Source: Paenibacillus pinihumi DSM 23905 = JCM 16419 (GTDB lineage Bacteria; Bacillota; Bacilli; Paenibacillales; Paenibacillaceae). From it: 64,000 bases of DNA. The DNA is taken from the NCBI RefSeq assembly GCF_000422505.1, contig NZ_KE383868.1, positions 196,202 through 260,201 on the forward strand. The letters are read 5' to 3'. Both the position numbers and the translations under genes were made by a program. The notes beneath the pieces were generated by a model, which saw nothing but the letters and a program-made list of their open reading frames with translations, ran no database searches and was not told the DNA's origin. Below are positions 1-9,122 of the stretch, in pieces. Numbering within the stretch: position 1 is the first letter of the stretch; each line of letters opens with the position of its first letter.

Positions 1-2384
1 CATGTTGTCGACCGGTCCATGGCATTCTGCGGAAGCTGCGTCGTCGGCAGGGCGATTCGCACATTTTCAAGCTCATGATCCGCTCCGGTACGAATAATCA
101 TCAGCACCCGTCCGTAAACGTGCAGCATATTGTCGTCATTGTTGTTCAACACGTAAAACTCGGAGTAGCCTTTTTGCAGCTTCGACGTATCCGATTCAAT
201 ATTTTTCATATGCCAGAAGCTGCCCGGGATGATCACTTGATCGATATTAGCCGACGACAGCAGCGGATAGCCATTGTTGCTGAATGCATCCTGTATAGCC
301 CGGGACACATTTTTTCGGTCCAAATCTGCACTGAGCGACTGTCCCATGTCAAATAGATGAACGCCGAACGGCCGGCCGGATACGTTAAGCTTCTGGTCCG
401 CTTCCGCGATATTATAAACCGGATATACCGGGTCGGAGCCGTTTAAGATCGTCCAGCTGCTATTTGGAATGTTTACGGTAACCGTAGCGTTCAGAGCGAG
501 CGGATAGTTGTTGGTCTGAAATTGAGTCCGCAAATCGGACGATATCATCTGATTGTTCAGACCGGCCGCATAAGACATAGACAGCGTGAAAAATGGCCCT
601 TGGTCAAGCGACACGGCCGCATTTGTCAGCACGGCCCCTTGCAAATGCGCCTGGACGAACGATGCCCCCTGTACATTGGCAAAGGCGAGCGACGCGGGCT
701 TTTTACTGACCGAGGTGCGTAAATAAGCACCGTTAAAAATGGTGTCGATCAAAATCGACTGGCTTAACGTACAGCCGTACATGCGAGCCTGCGTGAAATC
801 CATGCTGCCCAAATTGGCGCCCGATAGATTGACATCCTCCAAATCGGCGTTATCGGCCTTGGCGGCAGCACCGTACCAGTTCACGCCTGACATATCGACC
901 GCATACAAATTCGCGTTCGTGAACACCGCATTAGGCATATAAGCCCCGGCCAGCACGGCTGCATAGTGCTCGTTGGAGTAGACCCATACAATTAGCTCTG
1001 AGCTGTTGTTCGTGACCGTATAAATGGTGTTGACATTGGTAATGACCCAGTTCTCATTCGGGATACGCACCTCCACAGCGGCACTGCCCGACAGCGGATG
1101 CCCTCCGTTTTGAAATGCGGTCCGCACGCCCGAGGTGACCGACCCGCTGTTCAAGTCGGAAGCGAGCGATTTATTCATCGTGAACGATGCTTCCTTTGCT
1201 CCAAGCTGCGCGCCGGTGAAATCCGTCGATGTCAATGTCGCGTTGGACAGACTGGCACTGTAGAGCTTTACGCCTCCCGTAAGCTTTGCTTTAGTCAAAT
1301 TGGCATAGCTGAAATCCCCCCCGGTCAGGTCGGTGTTGTCAAGCAGCGCTTCGCTCAGATCAGCGCGCGTGAACGTCACCTTGGGCAGTAAGCAACCGGT
1401 CAGCCGCACTTTTTGCATGCTCGCTCCGGTGAAATTCGTCTTGGCATCGATTTGCGCCGTCCGCAAATCCAGTTCGTCCAACTTGGCCGCGGCAAGCGTA
1501 GCGCCAGGCAGATGAATATCCTCCACACTGGCCTTCCTGAGATCCGCGCGCGTTAGATCGGCATTGTCCAATCTGGCGTTTCTTATTAGCGCTTCGCTCA
1601 AATTGGCGTCGGCCAGATTGCTGTTTTGGACGCGCGCATTCAAGAGCAGCGCCTTGGTCATGTTCGCTCCGGTAAAATTGCTGCCTTGCAGGTTGGCATC
1701 CGACAGCTTCGTACTCAGCATGGTTGAATTGGTCAAATTGGCACCAGGCATCGTCACCTGATTCATGACAGCGTAAGACATAATGGCGTCCACGAACTTG
1801 GCGCGGGATAAATTCGTATCCGTACCCGGAAACTGGGCTCCGTATAAATTGCAACCCGAAAGATCAGCGTCCGACAAATTGGAGTCGGTAAAAATAACCC
1901 GGCTTAAATCGGCGGATGCCATATAAGCCCAACTGAAATCGGAGTCCACCGCTACCTTGAATGCCTGAATGTCGTCAAGCCCAGGCGAGATCGTCTCTCG
2001 GCTTAGCAGCGTACTTGCCGGAGGATTGCTTACCGGCACCCGACTTACCGTACTGCCGCTGACGCTGACATAATACCTCGTGCCGGACGCCTGCTCTACA
2101 AGCCGGACAGAGGCTCCCGATGTCTCCAGTGTAAATAAGGCAGGGGAGCCGGTTCTCGGCTCCGCTGCGGTATATCCGCTCCCCTTATAAGCGACATATT
2201 TCCCGTTATTGCCCTGCAGCCAAAATCCGCTGCCCGTATTGCTGTAGCTGTTGAACCGCTGGTTCCCGCCCGGCGTGGAAGCGCCACCGGCCACAAGCTT
2301 ACCGCTCGCATCCAAGCTAATGTACGAGCCGGCGCTCGTACTGCGCAGCGCCCATTTTCCGATAAACCGTTTATCCGAAGCCAT
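1..2384 (-). CDS. Pentapeptide-repeat protein with N-terminal beta-trefoil-like domain (3' end outside window)
   Basis: The frame is open from ATG 2384 (SD GGGAGGAG) to the window edge, so about 794 residues are visible and the C-terminus is missing. Residues 1-115 look like a fascin or ricin type beta-trefoil strand set (WALRSTSAGSYISLD, FWLQGNNGKYVAYKG). From about residue 150 to 395, and again at about 475-590, the protein is built of pentapeptide repeats of the A(D/N)Lxx type (for example NLSDADLSGCNL, NADLTRADLRKA), which fold as a right-handed quadrilateral beta-helix. Three copies of another module of about 70 residues follow or interrupt these, at about 401-466, 598-666 and 675-755 (core SLASDLNSG, then AFxxNG, then a Trp strand, then YxV and LxVYG). 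The same module occurs in the protein encoded at 5205-9122. There is no signal peptide. It is last in a run of five co-directional genes. Function is unknown; a structural or surface role is inferred. Confidence 0.85.
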   Translation of the reverse strand, partial: MASDKRFIGKWALRSTSAGSYISLDASGKLVAGGASTPGGNQRFNSYSNTGSGFWLQGNNGKYVAYKGSGYTAAEPRTGSPALFTLETSGASVRLVEQASGTRYYVSVSGSTVSRVPVSNPPASTLLSRETISPGLDDIQAFKVAVDSDFSWAYMASADLSRVIFTDSNLSDADLSGCNLYGAQFPGTDTNLSRAKFVDAIMSYAVMNQVTMPGANLTNSTMLSTKLSDANLQGSNFTGANMTKALLLNARVQNSNLADANLSEALIRNARLDNADLTRADLRKASVEDIHLPGATLAAAKLDELDLRTAQIDAKTNFTGASMQKVRLTGCLLPKVTFTRADLSEALLDNTDLTGGDFSYANLTKAKLTGGVKLYSASLSNATLTSTDFTGAQLGAKEASFTMNKSLASDLNSGSVTSGVRTAFQNGGHPLSGSAAVEVRIPNENWVITNVNTIYTVTNNSSELIVWVYSNEHYAAVLAGAYMPNAVFTNANLYAVDMSGVNWYGAAAKADNADLEDVNLSGANLGSMDFTQARMYGCTLSQSILIDTIFNGAYLRTSVSKKPASLAFANVQGASFVQAHLQGAVLTNAAVSLDQGPFFTLSMSYAAGLNNQMISSDLRTQFQTNNYPLALNATVTVNIPNSSWTILNGSDPVYPVYNIAEADQKLNVSGRPFGVHLFDMGQSLSADLDRKNVSRAIQDAFSNNGYPLLSSANIDQVIIPGSFWHMKNIESDTSKLQKGYSEFYVLNNNDDNMLHVYGRVLMIIRTGADHELENVRIALPTTQLPQNAMDRSTT

Positions 2385-2413
2385 CGCTTCTCCTCCCTGT
2401 TTCCAGCCTCCGG

Positions 2414-3124
2414 CTACAACTGATCGACCTGCTCGACGGAAACGGCTCCGCTCCTTCCGGTAATCCCCGGTGTCCCCGGTGTGCCGGACACGCCGTTTGC
2501 CCCGTCGCTAGCGCCGGACGGCGGCTGGCCCGGCGTTGTGCCGTTCAATCCTCCCGGACCGCCGACACCTGCACTCCCCGCAGGGCCGCCTGCCCCGCCG
2601 ACACCGCCGGATGAATTGCCGGAGACAGGGCTTAGCAGCGAAGTCGTCACATACCGGACGGTAATATCCCCGCCGTTCCCCCCATTGCCCCCGTTACCTC
2701 CGTGTCCCGCGTTGCTGCCGTTGCCGCCGACACCGCCAAGTGCTGCCGGAAGCGAGTCCTGGCACTTGGAATCCTGCTGTCCCGCACTGCCCCCGGCGCT
2801 TCCATTGCCCCCGTTGCCGCCCCGTCCGCCGCTTCCGCCATTGCCTCCACGGCTTTCAATTGTAATCATCGACTGCGTCACGAACTCCTGCACCCGCAGC
2901 ACAAAATCAAAGCCGTTGCCGCCCGCGCCGCCGTTTTCCCCGCTTATACCTGCTGATATCGCGTTTTGTCCGGGCTGTCCGTTGGTTGCCGGAGTGCAGT
3001 GCGGATTGTCATTTTTATTGTAAGAACCATTCTGGCCTCCGGCTCCGTTTTGTGTCGCGCTTTGCCCATCCGTACCGTCCGCTCCGTCCGCCCCTTCAGG
3101 CGGTTGAATTATAATATCGTACAT
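2414..3124 (-). CDS. Glycine-rich GGNGG-repeat protein
   Basis: A 236-residue protein dominated by Gly, Asn, Ser and Ala in runs such as GGNGGSGGRGGNGGNG and GGNGGNGGNGGDI. The pattern recalls polyglycine-II sandwich domains of phage adhesins and mycobacterial PGRS segments, and is less regular than collagen Gly-X-Y. The N-terminus (MYDIIIQPPEGADGADGTDG) and a short beta segment (FDFVLRVQEFVTQSMITIESR) are the only non-repetitive parts. It ends close to SVEQVDQL. The start ATG follows CTTATAAGGAGAGG, a leader nearly identical to the one before the gene at 4522-5082. There is no signal peptide. The gene lies 29 bp upstream of the pentapeptide gene and 105 bp after the related Gly-rich gene. 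It probably forms an extended glycine-rich scaffold; the biochemical role is unknown. Confidence 0.8.
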   Translation of the reverse strand: MYDIIIQPPEGADGADGTDGQSATQNGAGGQNGSYNKNDNPHCTPATNGQPGQNAISAGISGENGGAGGNGFDFVLRVQEFVTQSMITIESRGGNGGSGGRGGNGGNGSAGGSAGQQDSKCQDSLPAALGGVGGNGSNAGHGGNGGNGGNGGDITVRYVTTSLLSPVSGNSSGGVGGAGGPAGSAGVGGPGGLNGTTPGQPPSGASDGANGVSGTPGTPGITGRSGAVSVEQVDQL

Positions 3125-3229
3125 AAACTCATTCCTCTCCTTATAAGTTCAGTCTGGCTCCGTGCTTTTCGGCTTACCGTCTGCCAGAAAAGCGCAGGCT
3201 GCCGATGCCCGCTTACCTGTCAACATCGG

Positions 3230-4471
3230 TTAATTGAGCGGCACATTGTTGACATACACTTTGCCAAGCGTGCCGCTGACGCCGTTCTGGCCGACGCTGC
3301 CGGCACCGCCACCGCCGCCGTTCGGGTTTCCTTGACCTGCGGAACCGCCGTTGCCGCCCCGTCCGCCTTGACCGGCCTGCCCGTAACCGGATGGCGGAAT
3401 AACCTTGAATGATCCGCCCGGAGCTAATGTGGAATATGTAATGTTAATCGTCCCTCCGGCCCCGCCATTGCCGCCTTTACCGCCGTTTCCTCCACCGCCT
3501 CCATTTCCGCCCCTGCCTTGCGCCCCCTTTGAGCAATTGCCCGTTGCGGGCCCTCCCGGTCCCCCAGTCCCCCCGGTACCTCCGTTGCCCCCGTTGCCTC
3601 CATTCCCGCCATTGCCGCCTACTGAAGCGACAAGCACCTCGCCATTGACGGTATCAAGCGTGAGCACGACCGGTGCAGCATCTCCGCCATTGGAGCCATT
3701 TCCGCCAGCGCCCCCAGGATTGCCTGTACCTCCGGTTCCTCCTTGTCCCGGCTGCTTGTCACAAGAGTTTTTCCCGCTCGATCCCGAGCTTCCTGTTGAT
3801 CCCGTGGTGCCGGTGCCGCCATTGCTGCCCGAGTTGCCCGGGGTTCCTGTCGTTCCCACATTAAGCATCGTGTAGCTGCCGGTGCCCGGCTCCTGAGTCA
3901 ATACATTCGTGATCAGCTGAATATTGCCCGTAGCCATAAGCTTTCCGCCGGCACCAACTGTCACCGAACTATAATCGTGGACAACAGGCTGGTTCGTGCC
4001 TCCTTGCAGGGTTACCGTCTGCCCCGGCGGCACGTTCAGGCTGCCCGCGGCCAATATCGCCAGCTTTGTAGGGAAGAAATATTTCTGAATCGCTTCCTTG
4101 TACGATCTCACTTTCTTTGAATTGCCGCTGATATAGGCCGTATACGCTTTGCAAATTGCCGTTCTCTCCTGCGGCGTCAGATCATCGTATGCCAGTGCCG
4201 TTCTCCCCGCAGGCCACGGAGCAGGCACCTCGTGTCTTTCCTCCAAAGCGCCGTTCTCGAACAAATAATCCGGCTGGCCGCCAAATTCCTTAAACTCGTC
4301 AAGGGTATTGATCGTAACGTAAACCGGCTTTACCGGAGACGGCGCGTCCGGGTCGGCGGAAATAATGACAGGATTCGGTCCCTGGGCATTAATATCGATT
4401 CTTGGAAGCATCTCTTCCGTAAGACCGTAACGGGACATAAACACTTGGCGAAAACGATTCACTTCACTCAT
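3230..4471 (-). CDS. Two-part protein: conserved N-terminal domain plus glycine-rich GGNGG tail
   Basis: A 413-residue protein. Residues 1 to about 185 form a non-repetitive domain with PAPWPAGR, LTPQERTAICKAYTAY, SYKEAIQKYFFPTK and a beta-rich end (TVTLQGGTNQPVVHD, SSVTVGAGGKL). This domain is clearly paralogous to the whole protein at 4522-5082, which has PEPWPHVR, LNESEERAVYAAL and SYTDLVKRRYFPMK in the same order. Residues of about 200-413 are Gly, Asn and Ser rich with many GGNGG and GGTGG runs, interrupted by two short beta segments (APVVLTLDTVNGEVLVAS and INITYSTLAPGGSFKVI). The closing stretch GTLGKVYVNNVPLN looks like a terminal cap. SD AAGGAGG is 9 nt before ATG 4471. Two Cys occur in the linker region. 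The family is not recognised. Confidence 0.8.
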   Translation of the reverse strand: MSEVNRFRQVFMSRYGLTEEMLPRIDINAQGPNPVIISADPDAPSPVKPVYVTINTLDEFKEFGGQPDYLFENGALEERHEVPAPWPAGRTALAYDDLTPQERTAICKAYTAYISGNSKKVRSYKEAIQKYFFPTKLAILAAGSLNVPPGQTVTLQGGTNQPVVHDYSSVTVGAGGKLMATGNIQLITNVLTQEPGTGSYTMLNVGTTGTPGNSGSNGGTGTTGSTGSSGSSGKNSCDKQPGQGGTGGTGNPGGAGGNGSNGGDAAPVVLTLDTVNGEVLVASVGGNGGNGGNGGNGGTGGTGGPGGPATGNCSKGAQGRGGNGGGGGNGGKGGNGGAGGTINITYSTLAPGGSFKVIPPSGYGQAGQGGRGGNGGSAGQGNPNGGGGGAGSVGQNGVSGTLGKVYVNNVPLN

Positions 4472-4521
4472 GGCATGGCGCCTCCTTGATATTCAATAAT
4501 TGGTTTTCGTTTCAACAAAGT

Positions 4522-5082
4522 TTACTTTTTAATAAATTGATTAGCCGTAATAATGACGGGAGCATGGCAGATGATTTGTCCTTCCGGCTCCAGCGTTATC
4601 GAGTTGGCTGCCACGATGACCGGATCATGGCCTTGCGGCTCGATGACAAGCGGATTGTCCTTGGTCACGACGATATCTTCGGCCGCATACACGACAGCCT
4701 TCATCGGGAAATACCGGCGCTTTACCAAGTCTGTATAGCTGGACACCTCCTCCTGCTTTCCGGCCAATATGGCGCGCAGGGCGGCGTATACGGCCCGCTC
4801 CTCCGACTCGTTCAGCCCCTTGGGGTCGACTTCTCTTCTCACATGAGGCCAAGGCTCGGGCAACCTCGCCGGTGCGCCTGTCCCGGCAAACCCGCCAACA
4901 ATGTCCTGCAGTTCCTCCACAGTTGCAATTGAAACCAGCTTGGCCTTCAGCGCCGACGGAAACTGTTTCTTGGCCGACAAATACGTCGGGCGTGCGGTGC
5001 CTTTGGTGGTCAGCGTGCCTTGATGGATGTCCGCTTTGGTCAAACCGAGCCGGCTGGACGTTTCTTTGAATAGATCGACCAC
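4522..5082 (-). CDS. Short paralog of the Gly-rich protein's N-terminal domain
   Basis: A 186-residue protein starting at GTG 5082 after CTTATAAGGAGGAG. It aligns by eye along its whole length with residues 1 to about 185 of the product of 3230-4471: a helical start (SRLGLTK against SRYGLTE), PxPWPxxR, an LxxxExxA helix, (R/K)YFPxK, then paired beta strands (NPLVIEPQGHDPVIVAANSI against the NQPVVHDYSSV region). It lacks the glycine-rich tail. The pair therefore probably arose by duplication, with the Gly-rich part gained or lost. It sits 50 bp before the longer paralog and 122 bp after the 1305-residue gene, with a terminator-like hairpin in that gap. There is no signal peptide and no known fold was recognised. 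It may be a capping or assembly partner. Confidence 0.75.
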   Translation of the reverse strand: MVDLFKETSSRLGLTKADIHQGTLTTKGTARPTYLSAKKQFPSALKAKLVSIATVEELQDIVGGFAGTGAPARLPEPWPHVRREVDPKGLNESEERAVYAALRAILAGKQEEVSSYTDLVKRRYFPMKAVVYAAEDIVVTKDNPLVIEPQGHDPVIVAANSITLEPEGQIICHAPVIITANQFIKK

Positions 5083-5119
5083 GTGTTCTCCTCCTTATAA
5101 GTGGAACTATATATTTATG

Positions 5120-5176
5120 AAAAAGTCCCTGCCGGGCTTTAAGTGCTGTACCATGATGAAGCAGGCAGGCAGGGAC
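5120..5176 (-). terminator. Terminator-like hairpin after the 1305-residue gene
   Basis: On the minus strand the 9-bp stem GTCCCTGCC/GGCAGGGAC (5168-5176 and 5125-5133) is followed by TTTTT. The loop is long (34 nt) and can pair further. It lies just past the stop at 5205, so it may reduce read-through into the four downstream genes. Confidence 0.5.
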
Positions 5177-5204
5177 GTTTCATACGGTAATTTGAGACCA
5201 GCTC

Positions 5205-8200
5205 TTACGATGCCGGAATGCCGTATACTTGCAGGCTGCTGCCGCTGCGGATGACATCATACGTTTTGGATCCGTCGATGACGTACCAGAATCCGCTCTC
5301 GTTCACGGTTTCGATCCTTGTGGAGGTACTTAGCGTAATTCCGTTCGCTGCAAAATCCGCCCGTATGGCATTCACATTATGATTGTCGAAGTCCGGCTGC
5401 TTCTCCAGCGGAAGATCAAAGAGCGGCGGAGTCGGCGTCCAGTGGCTGATGCTCGGCTCCGTCCGGTTGTTCGCCCCGACGATTGCTTCATAGTTGAGCG
5501 TGTATACGCTGCGCCAGACATCGATGACGAACTTCGCCGCGCTTATATATTGCGGATTTGCCGGCTGCAAGCGGGAGTTTGGCGTCCGCACGAGGAACGA
5601 GCCGTCCGGGTTGTAAATATCCATGCTGTAATTGCTGACCACACTGCCGCTGGACACATACGAGAGCACATAGATATACCCTTTTGCCTCTACAGCGACA
5701 TCGAGATACGTAATGTCCGTCCGCCCGTCCGGATTGTAGAGCTTCATATGCGGCAAATAGCGGTTCACATTCAACTGCTTGTTGTTCGTCTCATCCTTGG
5801 CAATATAGTAAGATTTCGCACCGGCGCTATCCTCCAAGACCCAAGTGCTGCCCTCAGCGCGCACATCAATCGTAACATCTGTCAGCGCATGATTGACGTT
5901 CAATACGTTGCCCGCTTTTTGGATGTCATAGACGGCACTGCGCGTCGGGTCGGTAATTTTCCACTGTTGGCCCTGCACGACAATCGTCACAAAAGCGCTG
6001 ATATTATGATCGTTCATGTGCTCTTTGTCGTACGCGAGATATACGCCTTCATCGGCGAAGGCATCAATCAAATAATCGGTCAGTACGCCCGAGTTCAAAT
6101 CAGAAGCCAGCGAACCGGCCAAATCGAAAATATGCGTCAAGCCGTTCGCTTGGAACTGCTGCTGCAGCGCTGCGGAAAATTGCCCTTTGTCTAAATCGGC
6201 GGCATAGCCGGAGGCCGGCAGTGTAAACAATTTTTCACCCAGGAAGCTGGCTACCGGGTTTCCTTTCGTATCGAACGACTGAATGCGCTGGTTGACGGTT
6301 TCGAGAATGAGCACACGCCCGTCCGGGGTCACCGCCAGCGCCCGTGGTCCGTTGAGCAGTCCTTGCCTCACACCAAGCCCGGATACCATCTGCGCATCCT
6401 CCGCCTTATTGTCATCTGACGGCGCCTCAGGAATTTGCAAAATTTCCATTTTGCTGTCCCGCCAGCTGACGGCAATCACCGCACCGTCCGGATGCACCAC
6501 GACTCCGTCGATATTGGACAAATTGAATTTGCCCCAGCTTTTCAAATTCGAATCGTTCAAACCGAAGCCCGGCTTGTTATCCATCAAATCGACACGGCGC
6601 AAATGGAACTGGTTATTTCGCGTATCGACAATAAAGTTATTCAGGCTGACCTCCCGCTCTTGCCCTTCCTTCGGCTCGACGCCAAACTGGTCATAAGCGA
6701 TGGCCGGCTGAACGGGAAACGCTGTCTCGGACAGCTTGAAGCGCGACTGCGGATCAGCCAGCACAGACAAGTTTTGCGCCAAATAATTTTGGCTGCTGGC
6801 GCTCCATACATAGCCAACCTGATACGCCTGTCCGTTCAGCGTCATGCCGACCGGCTTGCACAGCCGGTTGCCCCCGCTGCTGCAATCAAGACTCGCCACC
6901 GTCGCTGTCGGCAAATCGCCCGCATGCCAGACGTGCTTTTGACTCGGAGCGTCGTACACGATTTTTTCCTTATAGTTGTACTGCGTATCCTGCGTGAGCG
7001 GGACGAGAATTTCCGTAATGTTGCCGGAAATCTGCAGCGAGGTTGATCCGTCGTCCGGGAAAGCGGGCAGCCATTCACCCTGGTATTTGCCGCATAGCCA
7101 GCCGCTCTCGGAGTAGATGCCTGACATAATTTGCAGCTTGCCTCCGACCGGAATGTCCGCAAACGTCAGCTTAAGCGGCGTGCTGGACGTCGTCTCCGGC
7201 ATTCTGCCCTTCAGGACGAAGTTCGTTCCGCCCTCATACTGCACGGTCACCTGATAGTGATGCGAGACAGCAGGCCAGACGGCCGTCTCCGGATGTCCCG
7301 CTTCGCCATGCTCCGGGTCCGGCTTCAAGGTGAACTCCAAATCCATGGAACGGGCTACGGTAGCTGACAGTGTCGATGGGGAGGACAAAATTTCGCCCGT
7401 TGTAACCGCCATGGCTGCGATATTAATCGCCATATTCGCCGCACGCAGCGCCCAGCCTGCAAACGGAATGTTGGTCGCAAGCGCAGCGACTGTAATTTCG
7501 CCCGCAATTTTCAGCGCGAGCTTCTCCAGCCCTTTTTGTACCAGCATTCCTGCAACTGCATTGGCTACGGTGGACAGCGCCCACTTCGTTTGGTCAAACG
7601 CAGATGCCGTCGCTACCCCTCCACCGACAATTGGGAAGGCGACGCCCAATACGGCGACAATGTTATCCCAATCCTCGACGAATTCGTTATACCATTTCGA
7701 GCTTTTAACCGCTGCTCCCGCTACAAGGAAGATGGTCGGGATGCCGTACTGCATGATGCCCGTCATCAGCGATCCAACCAGTGCAACGTCCTTATCCCAC
7801 TGAGACGTGCCCAGCCCGCCGAACAGCAGTTTGAGGCTTGTTGCATCGCTTGGAAATTGGAACGACAGCGTTTTAGGATCGGTCGGCATCGGTATGCCCA
7901 TCACCGAGTTGACCGCCGAGACGGGTGTAATGAATTTTTTGTAATCCGTCTCGAACCAGCTTCTCATAAATTCCGGAAGCTTCTCTTCCCAGCCCGCCGG
8001 ATTTTTGATCGTTTCGCCTTTCTCGTTAAAAAACTGCGCAAACGCGCCGAGCGACCTCAAATATGTATTTTTTACTTTGATGGAAAACGTGCCGTCCGCA
8101 TGGAACTTCAGTGAGCCCGCATCCACGCCCAGGCCGTGATTCGGTGTCAGTTCCTTCACGGTCCACTTGAACTGAGGTGCGGCAGTCTCCACGGCGGCAG

Positions 8201-9122
8201 CGTACGCTCTGCGAACGGTGACGCTGCCCGATCCGCTGTTGTCTTGATGCTCGCTCGCCGTCTTGCCCTGGTTTACGCTCCATGTCTGGTTTTGCAGCGA
8301 GGTATCGTTGCTCGCCGTCTGCATGGCCCCGCCGTTGGGTGCTGTGGCTTCATCTGTCGTCATTTCCGACCATTTGTACTCCAGAACACGGTCACCTGTT
8401 TTGCGGTCGTCTAAATCAAACTCGAAATAAAGCGGGTTGCCGTCCTTATCGACGGAATCGGTAATGGTCGCCCATCCGCCAGTCGAAGTGGCCTGGCCTT
8501 GTTTGCTGATGATGGTTGCCAGTTGGCGAACGCGGTTGTATTGCTGCGGATTAATGATTTCCGACGGGTAAATATGATCGTGGGTCACAATGGCGGCCGT
8601 ATGCGGCCGGTTGGAAGCCAGCTCCGGATTGGAGAACAGGATCGAGATTGCAATATCTAATGGTGTCTGCAGCAATTCAGCATCGACACAGGCCTGAATG
8701 AGCTCGCTTGTGCTCAAAGTATTGGATAGTTTGGCAAGGCCCAGTGCGCTCAGCTTCGGGTGGTGGTACATGCCGCTTCGCGCCATTTTGCGCTCATAGT
8801 ACCTTCTTCGGTGCCGCTCAGGGATATGGATTGAAACGTGATGCAGAGCAGGAAGATAAATATCTGGATCGGGATCAGGAGATGTGACCCGGATGCGGGT
8901 TAAATGATTGGTCGGGAGCAGCTTTTCCGGAATTTCCGCATAGTGGGTGAACAGACTTTGACTCGTTCCCGGGAGCAGCGTGAGCGCCCGGTTGCCCGAA
9001 ACAGCATTGCGAAGCGTATGCGGGGTATGCGCTTTTACAGCAACCTTTTCCGTGCCTACCCAAGTGGTTAGTTCCTGGTCCGTGTAGCCCTCTACGAGTT
9101 GGAAATGAAATGTTTTTGCCAT
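5205..9122 (-). CDS. Very large multidomain protein with hydrophobic core, NHL-like strands and repeat modules
   Basis: A 1305-residue protein; SD AAAAGGAG before ATG 9122. Visible layout: residues 1 to about 440 are soluble and mixed, with Gln/Asn/Thr-rich stretches and no signal peptide. About 450-580 is strongly hydrophobic, with several possible membrane helices (IPTIFLVAGAAV, IVAVLGVAFPIVGGG, MAINIAAMAVTT) rich in Gly and Ala. About 600-860 is beta-rich. About 870-960 resembles NHL or beta-propeller strands (GPRALAVTPDGRVLILETV, then NQRIQSFDTKGNPVASF). From about 962 onward come copies of the module shared with the pentapeptide protein (IFDLAGSLASDLNSG, then AFADEG, QQWKI, AVYDI, VLNV), and the protein closes with YDVIRSGSSLQVYG. 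A buried hydrophobic segment in an otherwise soluble giant recalls pore-forming or contact-delivered proteins, but no toxin family was recognised. A structural surface protein is an equal possibility. Confidence 0.75.
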   Translation of the reverse strand: MAKTFHFQLVEGYTDQELTTWVGTEKVAVKAHTPHTLRNAVSGNRALTLLPGTSQSLFTHYAEIPEKLLPTNHLTRIRVTSPDPDPDIYLPALHHVSIHIPERHRRRYYERKMARSGMYHHPKLSALGLAKLSNTLSTSELIQACVDAELLQTPLDIAISILFSNPELASNRPHTAAIVTHDHIYPSEIINPQQYNRVRQLATIISKQGQATSTGGWATITDSVDKDGNPLYFEFDLDDRKTGDRVLEYKWSEMTTDEATAPNGGAMQTASNDTSLQNQTWSVNQGKTASEHQDNSGSGSVTVRRAYAAAVETAAPQFKWTVKELTPNHGLGVDAGSLKFHADGTFSIKVKNTYLRSLGAFAQFFNEKGETIKNPAGWEEKLPEFMRSWFETDYKKFITPVSAVNSVMGIPMPTDPKTLSFQFPSDATSLKLLFGGLGTSQWDKDVALVGSLMTGIMQYGIPTIFLVAGAAVKSSKWYNEFVEDWDNIVAVLGVAFPIVGGGVATASAFDQTKWALSTVANAVAGMLVQKGLEKLALKIAGEITVAALATNIPFAGWALRAANMAINIAAMAVTTGEILSSPSTLSATVARSMDLEFTLKPDPEHGEAGHPETAVWPAVSHHYQVTVQYEGGTNFVLKGRMPETTSSTPLKLTFADIPVGGKLQIMSGIYSESGWLCGKYQGEWLPAFPDDGSTSLQISGNITEILVPLTQDTQYNYKEKIVYDAPSQKHVWHAGDLPTATVASLDCSSGGNRLCKPVGMTLNGQAYQVGYVWSASSQNYLAQNLSVLADPQSRFKLSETAFPVQPAIAYDQFGVEPKEGQEREVSLNNFIVDTRNNQFHLRRVDLMDNKPGFGLNDSNLKSWGKFNLSNIDGVVVHPDGAVIAVSWRDSKMEILQIPEAPSDDNKAEDAQMVSGLGVRQGLLNGPRALAVTPDGRVLILETVNQRIQSFDTKGNPVASFLGEKLFTLPASGYAADLDKGQFSAALQQQFQANGLTHIFDLAGSLASDLNSGVLTDYLIDAFADEGVYLAYDKEHMNDHNISAFVTIVVQGQQWKITDPTRSAVYDIQKAGNVLNVNHALTDVTIDVRAEGSTWVLEDSAGAKSYYIAKDETNNKQLNVNRYLPHMKLYNPDGRTDITYLDVAVEAKGYIYVLSYVSSGSVVSNYSMDIYNPDGSFLVRTPNSRLQPANPQYISAAKFVIDVWRSVYTLNYEAIVGANNRTEPSISHWTPTPPLFDLPLEKQPDFDNHNVNAIRADFAANGITLSTSTRIETVNESGFWYVIDGSKTYDVIRSGSSLQVYGIPAS

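Follow-up and report, generated by a model that had tools for sequence, protein, structure and literature searches.

At the start of a 64,000-nucleotide stretch of the Paenibacillus pinihumi DSM 23905 genome (hereafter the window) lie five co-directional genes on the minus strand, here named GIANT, SHORT, GGN1, GGN2 and TPP, whose products contain repeats far in excess of shuffled expectation. Their presence, already claimed in an earlier sequence-only reading of this DNA, was confirmed (the gaps from GIANT through to TPP measure 122, 50, 105 and 29 bases), and they are now seen as the beginning of a longer operon that continues past the window on contig C7, on the same strand, with MINI, a type I polyketide synthase (PKS) gene, GIANT2 and TPP2; TPP1, the TPP of the window, ends at 196066. 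The core of the system is GIANT plus TPP, which occurs in at least seven phyla. Because the gene set is intact in three phyla and shows fusions between its parts, it is very probably a working machine. Tentatively, it is read here as a horizontally spread multi-gene system that may form an extracytoplasmic scaffold or adhesin, the large form of which would make its own acyl or polyketide ligand.

GIANT was present in one of seven genomes of the genus. A search of the family returned matches at E<=0.001 in 18 of 394 genomes: 12 were clear (E below 1e-60), G273 holds a remnant (E 4.7e-20), and the five others, with weak matches (E 5e-5 to 1e-3), were dropped. All 12 clear genomes carry a TPP-type gene within the same co-directional run as GIANT, directly beside it in the two-gene form of the locus and after the SHORT and GGN genes in the large form. 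When one genome per species was scanned with a single peptide pattern, 35 named loci emerged, and in 31 of them GIANT and TPP stand in one run or one reading frame. The four loci without TPP, which lie on short contigs or close to the end of a contig, were kept in the denominator: L081 and L086 are on contigs under 5 kb, L071 has about 6 kb of TPP-free sequence upstream and 0.8 kb of sequence downstream, and L083 has 5.6 kb of TPP-free sequence downstream and no sequence upstream. The TPP profile includes generic pentapeptide repeats, and adjacency to GIANT was counted as part of the evidence. In Sphingobacteriales GIANT was found in 3 of 400 genomes, all three with TPP, and a search of 72,556 plasmid records added one more, the megaplasmid of Xenorhabdus bovienii CS03. 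The pair is recorded from Bacillota, Bacteroidota, Acidobacteriota, Pseudomonadota, Myxococcota, Actinomycetota and Nitrospirota, as well as from a Helicobacteraceae metagenome-assembled genome (MAG). With a phylum-wide GIANT profile 54 of 398 genomes matched; among the matches listed, all except that of P. pinihumi itself were short stretches of the NHL region, and these were not counted. GIANT was absent from 50,697 phage records, so a phage origin was rejected; a defence system was also rejected, as PADLOC gave no match.

The large form consists of GIANT, SHORT, GGN1, GGN2, TPP, (MINI) and PKS. SHORT and GGN genes were found in ten records (P. pinihumi, G276/L057, G184/L058, G314/L059, G372, L060, L061 from Tumebacillus, L062, L069 from Mucilaginibacter and L148 from Xenorhabdus), and a PKS gene or a piece of one is present in all ten, some being cut by contig or locus ends. 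According to the sequence-only reading the genes may form a system, a view to be given up if they never occurred together elsewhere and had independent promoters and unrelated expression. They do occur together: nine of the ten records, from three phyla, keep the order given above, and the fusions and distance correlation described below point in the same direction. The exception is P. forsythiae (G184/L058), where the genes are rearranged over contigs and a degraded giant with stops is present. On one contig of this species (L041, 6136-8706) the degraded GIANT adjoins SHORT and GGN2, and a second, intact GIANT lies on another contig. MINI is intact in six large-form records and reduced to a remnant of 105 amino acids (aa) in G276; it is absent in L069 and L148, and none was seen in P. 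forsythiae. In the Xenorhabdus locus (L148, NZ_FO818638.1:149465-177250) GIANT runs on into SHORT as a single gene. Transposase genes flank this operon on both sides. When the SHORT domain was searched for, 5 of the 394 family genomes matched, exactly the five large-form genomes.

Other arrangements of the core are simpler. The two-gene form was seen in Paenibacillus (P. lupini, for example), Humibacillus and a Myxococcales MAG, and in the fused form GIANT and TPP share a single frame of 1783 aa in Nitrospira defluvii (L091) and one of 2170 aa in L090. The Acidobacteria and Burkholderiales form (L064, L085, L087) consists of a glycine-rich protein, TPP and GIANT, and in L065 and L089 the glycine repeats are located inside the pentapeptide or TPP protein; these glycine-rich proteins are interrelated, and related to one encoded upstream of TPP in L082. 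In a Clostridia MAG (L078:14271-15932) and in Hymenobacter (L063:13853-15565) GIANT and TPP are separated by a gene of the TULIP (BPI-like) type. The L078 gene scores above the LBP_BPI_CETP_C cut-off (E 1.5e-9, 38.1 bits versus 23), and the L063 gene is of TULIP type solely as its relative (E 3.4e-32); the TULIP-type protein matched none of the PDB sequences. TAP-like alpha/beta hydrolase genes directly adjoin the GIANT/TPP pair at L066:16764-18584 and L087:9713-11356.

GIANT and TPP have a module of about 70 residues in common. By profile search 12 copies were found in the P. pinihumi genome at E<0.001, all within the two GIANT and the two TPP genes. Three copies are carried by the TPPs of Paenibacillus, Tumebacillus and Hymenobacter, one or two by some other TPPs, and two to five, partial copies counted, by several giants. 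The module is present in the PKS-type loci plus L063, L064, L065, L076 and L078, and was not found in the two-gene Paenibacillus loci. By sequence it has no convincing relative in Pfam or PDB (best Pfam E 0.0038, RicinB_lectin_2, in 1 of 14 members). The evolutionary distances of GIANT correlate with those of TPP (r 0.96 over 27 loci and 0.83 over 15 representatives, 0 of 2000 permutations each) and with those of PKS (r 0.97 over 7 records, 3 of 2000 permutations), the latter value being driven largely by the close Bacillota group. The dN/dS ratios ranged from 0.069 to 0.177 in nine comparisons, made for seven P. plantiphilus/P. oenotherae genes (PKS partial) and for GIANT2 and TPP2 of P. pinihumi against P. 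forsythiae. The fusions, the correlated distances, the low dN/dS and the shared module support the view that these genes constitute one system. In a GIANT tree obtained by a quick method, with some long branches, the phyla are interleaved; one clade unites the PKS-type giants from Bacillota, Xenorhabdus and Mucilaginibacter with that of the TULIP-type Hymenobacter. The best reading is that the gene set has spread horizontally.

Pentapeptide repeats had been recognized in TPP from the letters alone, and its A(D/N)LXX repeats indeed score above the Pfam cut-off (E 1.8e-59), as do those of 19 of 19 relatives. All NCBIfam matches of TPP stay below their cut-offs, the closest being Alr5209 (116.9 of 125 bits). 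The repeat is shared with HetL, Alr5209 and Qnr, to which TPP adds a different N-terminal sequence, the modules and a conserved cysteine-bearing tail. Its N-terminus matches a Fascin-like trefoil family below threshold (22.4 bits versus a cut-off of 23.1), with a match in 1 of 19 relatives. The tail, which lies outside the window at its low end, is TTCPNG-like across phyla, followed in many proteins by a WExMMTA..PPxPPxC stretch (alignment A5). Possibly the tail serves as a signal for processing or attachment. In GIANT the Pfam match to NHL is below threshold; the NHL-like strands noted earlier correspond to a predicted NHL propeller in the model of a homologue 27% identical to GIANT1, which also contains a hydrophobic helical bundle. 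The main hydrophobic block of the GIANT family coincides with this helical region by column hydropathy. Fold comparison of the model effectively tests the propeller alone. Unlike TRIM-NHL, PknD, PAL and teneurins, GIANT and its relatives contain no RING or kinase family in Pfam, and no counterpart was found for the bundle and the modules, which were barely tested in that comparison. The C-terminal parts of both GIANT and TPP align across relatives and are conserved, with no variable tip. MINI shares about 30% identity with GIANT1 and has neither its first part nor its inserted modules.

GGN1, GGN2 and SHORT gave zero Pfam matches at E up to 1; SHORT matches the N-terminal domain of GGN1, in agreement with its earlier designation as a paralogue. 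The polyglycine-II (PGII) structure anticipated for the GGNGG segments returns in the GGN1 model, in which the GGX repeats are predicted to pack as a bundle of PGII helices, interleaved with and joined to beta-helix-like strand pairs. This bundle resembles the snow flea antifreeze protein. Snow flea and springtail antifreeze proteins are small animal proteins, whereas GGN1 has additional strand-rich and helical parts and is encoded in a seven-gene operon. In the adhesin gp38 of Salmonella phage S16 (PMC6851490) the turns of a beta-helix likewise run on into bundled PGII helices rich in glycine. A likeness to gp38 is possible; the fold comparison of GGN1 covered 53 chains, and gp38 was not in its rows. 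However, gp38 caps a tail fibre and has hypervariable segments between glycine motifs; the dN/dS of GGN1, a gene-wide value from one pair, was 0.077. Moreover, gp38-type adhesins sit with phage tail genes, whereas GGN1 is part of a bacterial operon whose GIANT occurs in no phage record; GGN1 itself gave zero PHROGs matches. Homology with the Gram-negative glycine-rich proteins is not claimed, the hhalign value of 94.8% being confined to the glycine-rich stretch.

The PKS contains KS, AT, DH, KR and ACP domains with their active-site motifs and is of type I. No thioesterase family was matched in the domain scan, and the sole match named as an enoyl reductase (adh_short_C2) falls on the KR domain. 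The active-site motifs of the five domains are present in all eight operon PKSs compared (one partial record), that of Mucilaginibacter being the most divergent (e.g. GYSAG in AT). The KS is 70-80% identical to that of P. pinihumi in Bacillota operons and 55-56% in Xenorhabdus and Mucilaginibacter. Single-module type I PKSs of Bacillota clusters with non-ribosomal peptide synthetases (NRPS) belong to the same family; in contrast to these, the operon PKS stands with repeat-protein genes and has no matched thioesterase domain. Single-module relatives of the operon PKS were seen in PKS-NRPS-like runs (L142, L143, L144) of G314 (P. plantiphilus) and G786 (Tumebacillus). Such runs are a possible source of the operon PKS. 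Among the open reading frames read by eye in the P. pinihumi stretch around the operon no NRPS gene was noticed.

Seven of 36 giants start with a Tat motif (RRx[FL]-type, by regular expression) followed by a hydrophobic stretch, with a lipobox in five (L071, L082, L084, L087, L089) and without one in L083 and L085; Pfam TAT_signal was matched by 2 of 34 giants. The L077 giant has a start like that of a Sec lipoprotein, and Sec-like starts are found in partner proteins, i.e. the TPPs of L064, L077, L082, L085 and L087 and the glycine-rich proteins of L085 and L087. These calls come from pattern and hydropathy tests rather than trained prediction software, and the start codons assigned in GC-rich contigs are not secure; the P. 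pinihumi proteins and the partner proteins of G372 and Xenorhabdus were judged by eye. The flags on the TPPs of L069 (frame begins inside GGN2) and of the actinobacterial L079 (no cleavage site) were discounted, and the hydrophobic stretch of the L067 giant, in a TTG-started extension missing from its relatives L068 and L070, is probably a start-codon artefact. Because of the Tat- and Sec-like signals this Gram-negative branch probably acts outside the cytoplasm. In this respect the surface appendage put forward by the sequence-only reading is supported for that branch, and the support does not extend to Paenibacillus.

In the reading tentatively preferred here, GIANT and TPP would form one assembly acting outside the cytoplasm: the NHL propeller would offer a docking platform, the beta-helix of TPP would act as a rod and the shared module would be the joint. 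The helical bundle of GIANT would hold the assembly at or in the membrane, and the GGN proteins would be stiff PGII/beta-helix elements binding something outside the cell. The PKS would make a reduced acyl or polyketide chain that serves as lipid-like ligand, anchor or cargo; in two related loci a gene of the lipid-binding TULIP type stands in the run instead. Of all steps this coupling of the PKS to the protein assembly is the most daring; it is suggested by linkage in three phyla together with the TULIP-type variant. A more specific form, in which a mobile cassette encodes the PGII/beta-helix/propeller structure plus the PKS for the molecule that it carries or that anchors it, with PKS and TULIP as alternative ligand supplies, is doubtful. 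Several observations weigh against this reading. No signal peptide was accepted in Bacillota, Bacteroidota or Xenorhabdus by pattern and hydropathy tests or by eye. The confidence of the helical-bundle model is 57-79 per block, and the bundle may be a soluble core. In the remaining 28 of the 35 loci no PKS was seen within the flanks covered, so that the core does not need one. Three PKSs of PKS-NRPS clusters are as close to the P. pinihumi KS (53-57% identity) as those of the distant operons, and beyond the KS they even surpass the Mucilaginibacter PKS (37-40% versus 31-34%). One clade for the operon PKSs lacks support and their joint descent is unproven; given these identities, recruitment of the PKS, or its replacement, may have happened repeatedly. 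Repeated recruitment would still indicate a functional link.

The same parts could be arranged otherwise. In a secreted toxin or carrier complex directed against insects or competitors, the bundle would insert into the target membrane and the polyketide or lipid would be the cargo. The hydrophobic helices, the TULIP-type variant, the patchy spread, the plasmid-borne large form in an insect-associated bacterium and the NCBIfam cross-matches, below cut-off throughout, between TPP and pentapeptide effectors (PipB2, for example) would fit such a complex. It is nevertheless rather unlikely, as the scans against Pfam and, for the P. pinihumi proteins only, NCBIfam brought no toxin family above its curated cut-off, a variable tip is missing and the Tat-lipoprotein signals of one branch suggest retention on the producing cell. 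The contact-dependent complex of the sequence-only reading, understood as a toxin, finds no support in the conserved C-termini of GIANT and TPP, where a variable toxin domain would be expected. No immunity gene beside a toxin-like gene was noticed among the open reading frames listed (those below 80-100 aa left out), and no systematic search was made. Alternatively, the repeat proteins could organise an intracellular synthase as a cytosolic scaffold or compartment, the large form staying inside the cell. The large-form records without accepted signal peptide (seven by pattern test, including L069 with its discounted flag, the others by eye) and the correlation of GIANT with PKS distances are consistent with this. 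The core loci in which no PKS is visible and the exported look of the relatives argue against it, which makes this arrangement improbable.

A structure of the spore coat, as the sequence-only reading had suggested, or of the exosporium, produced by the mother cell, would agree with the absence of signals in the spore formers Paenibacillus and Tumebacillus, with the glycine-rich proteins and with one sigma-G-like match, upstream of GIANT1 of P. pinihumi. Patterns for sigma-E, sigma-K and sigma-H, however, matched none of 16 upstream regions, two of which were short, and a generic promoter/terminator scan remained at chance level. Since the large form also occurs in Mucilaginibacter and Xenorhabdus, which are not known to form spores, a spore function is very unlikely. 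Still less can be said for ice binding or cold protection, in spite of the resemblance of the GGN1 model to an antifreeze protein: the CfAFP matches are probably pentapeptide cross-matches, the PKS and the propeller would be left without explanation, and the same type of bundle is found in a phage adhesin according to the accessible passages of PMC6851490. A chance association of unrelated neighbours was rejected as next to impossible in view of the order kept in three phyla, the fusions and the exact co-occurrence.

As far as the searches go, the folds are known and the system is undescribed in the open-access literature searched. In its accessible parts no description of this combination was found, pentapeptide and NHL repeats co-occurred in one work, about kinases, and the search on Paenibacillus and spore coats returned work on polymorphic toxins only; the accessible Xenorhabdus literature apparently does not treat the CS03 locus. 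Bacterial TULIPs are treated in the accessible passages of PMC6791001, and P47/OrfX was considered as a parallel, those of PMC7020563 making no mention of pentapeptide or NHL. In this system a PKS is combined with PGII bundles, an NHL propeller, a beta-helix of pentapeptide repeats and a module that has no convincing relative in Pfam or PDB. If the assembly carried the PKS product, this would be a new bacterial way to arm or anchor a protein structure. GIANT and TPP alone suffice as the starting point for testing the system. The features are listed below.

Coordinates of the operon and of a neighbouring gene (window positions unless contig C7 is given)
Feature	Position	Strand	Basis
GIANT1, 1305 aa; N-terminal part followed by a hydrophobic helical region, beta strands and an NHL propeller interrupted by modules	5205..9122	-	family membership; fold of homologue 27% identical
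GIANT1 hydrophobic helical region, about residues 446-585	7368..7787	-	placed by eye on alignment; family column hydropathy; homologue model helices 388-507
GIANT1 predicted NHL propeller region, about residues 706-1233 (estimated), interrupted by modules	5424..7007	-	
GIANT1 shared module copy	5892..6131	-	E 4.6e-23
GIANT1 partial module copy	6138..6230	-	E 8.3e-6
GIANT1 C-terminal module copy	5223..5423	-	E 3.6e-20
SHORT, 186 aa; paralogous to the N-terminal domain of GGN1, lacking glycine repeats	4522..5082	-	
GGN1, 413 aa; N-terminal part with helices and many strands, and GGxGG repeats	3230..4471	-	
GGN1 predicted PGII bundle, within residues 213-396	3284..3835	-	
GGN2, 236 aa glycine-rich protein	2414..3124	-	
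TPP1, trefoil-like (unproven) and pentapeptide protein, 839 aa whole; final 136 bases outside window	1..2384	-	
TPP1 module copy 1	984..1184	-	E 4.8e-24
TPP1 module copy 2	378..593	-	E 3.8e-25
TPP1 module copy 3	114..356	-	E 5.6e-22
MINI, 849 aa, giant-like	contig C7 193364-195913	-	
Type I PKS, 1870 aa (operon gene 7)	contig C7 187721-193333	-	
GIANT2, 1309 aa	contig C7 183610-187539	-	67% identical to GIANT1
TPP2, 870 aa	contig C7 181017-183629	-	
PEP-synthase-like gene, downstream of TPP2	G000:C7:176345-178978		

The PEP-synthase-like gene downstream of TPP2 encodes a protein that, judged from its sequence, presumably resembles rifampin phosphotransferases.

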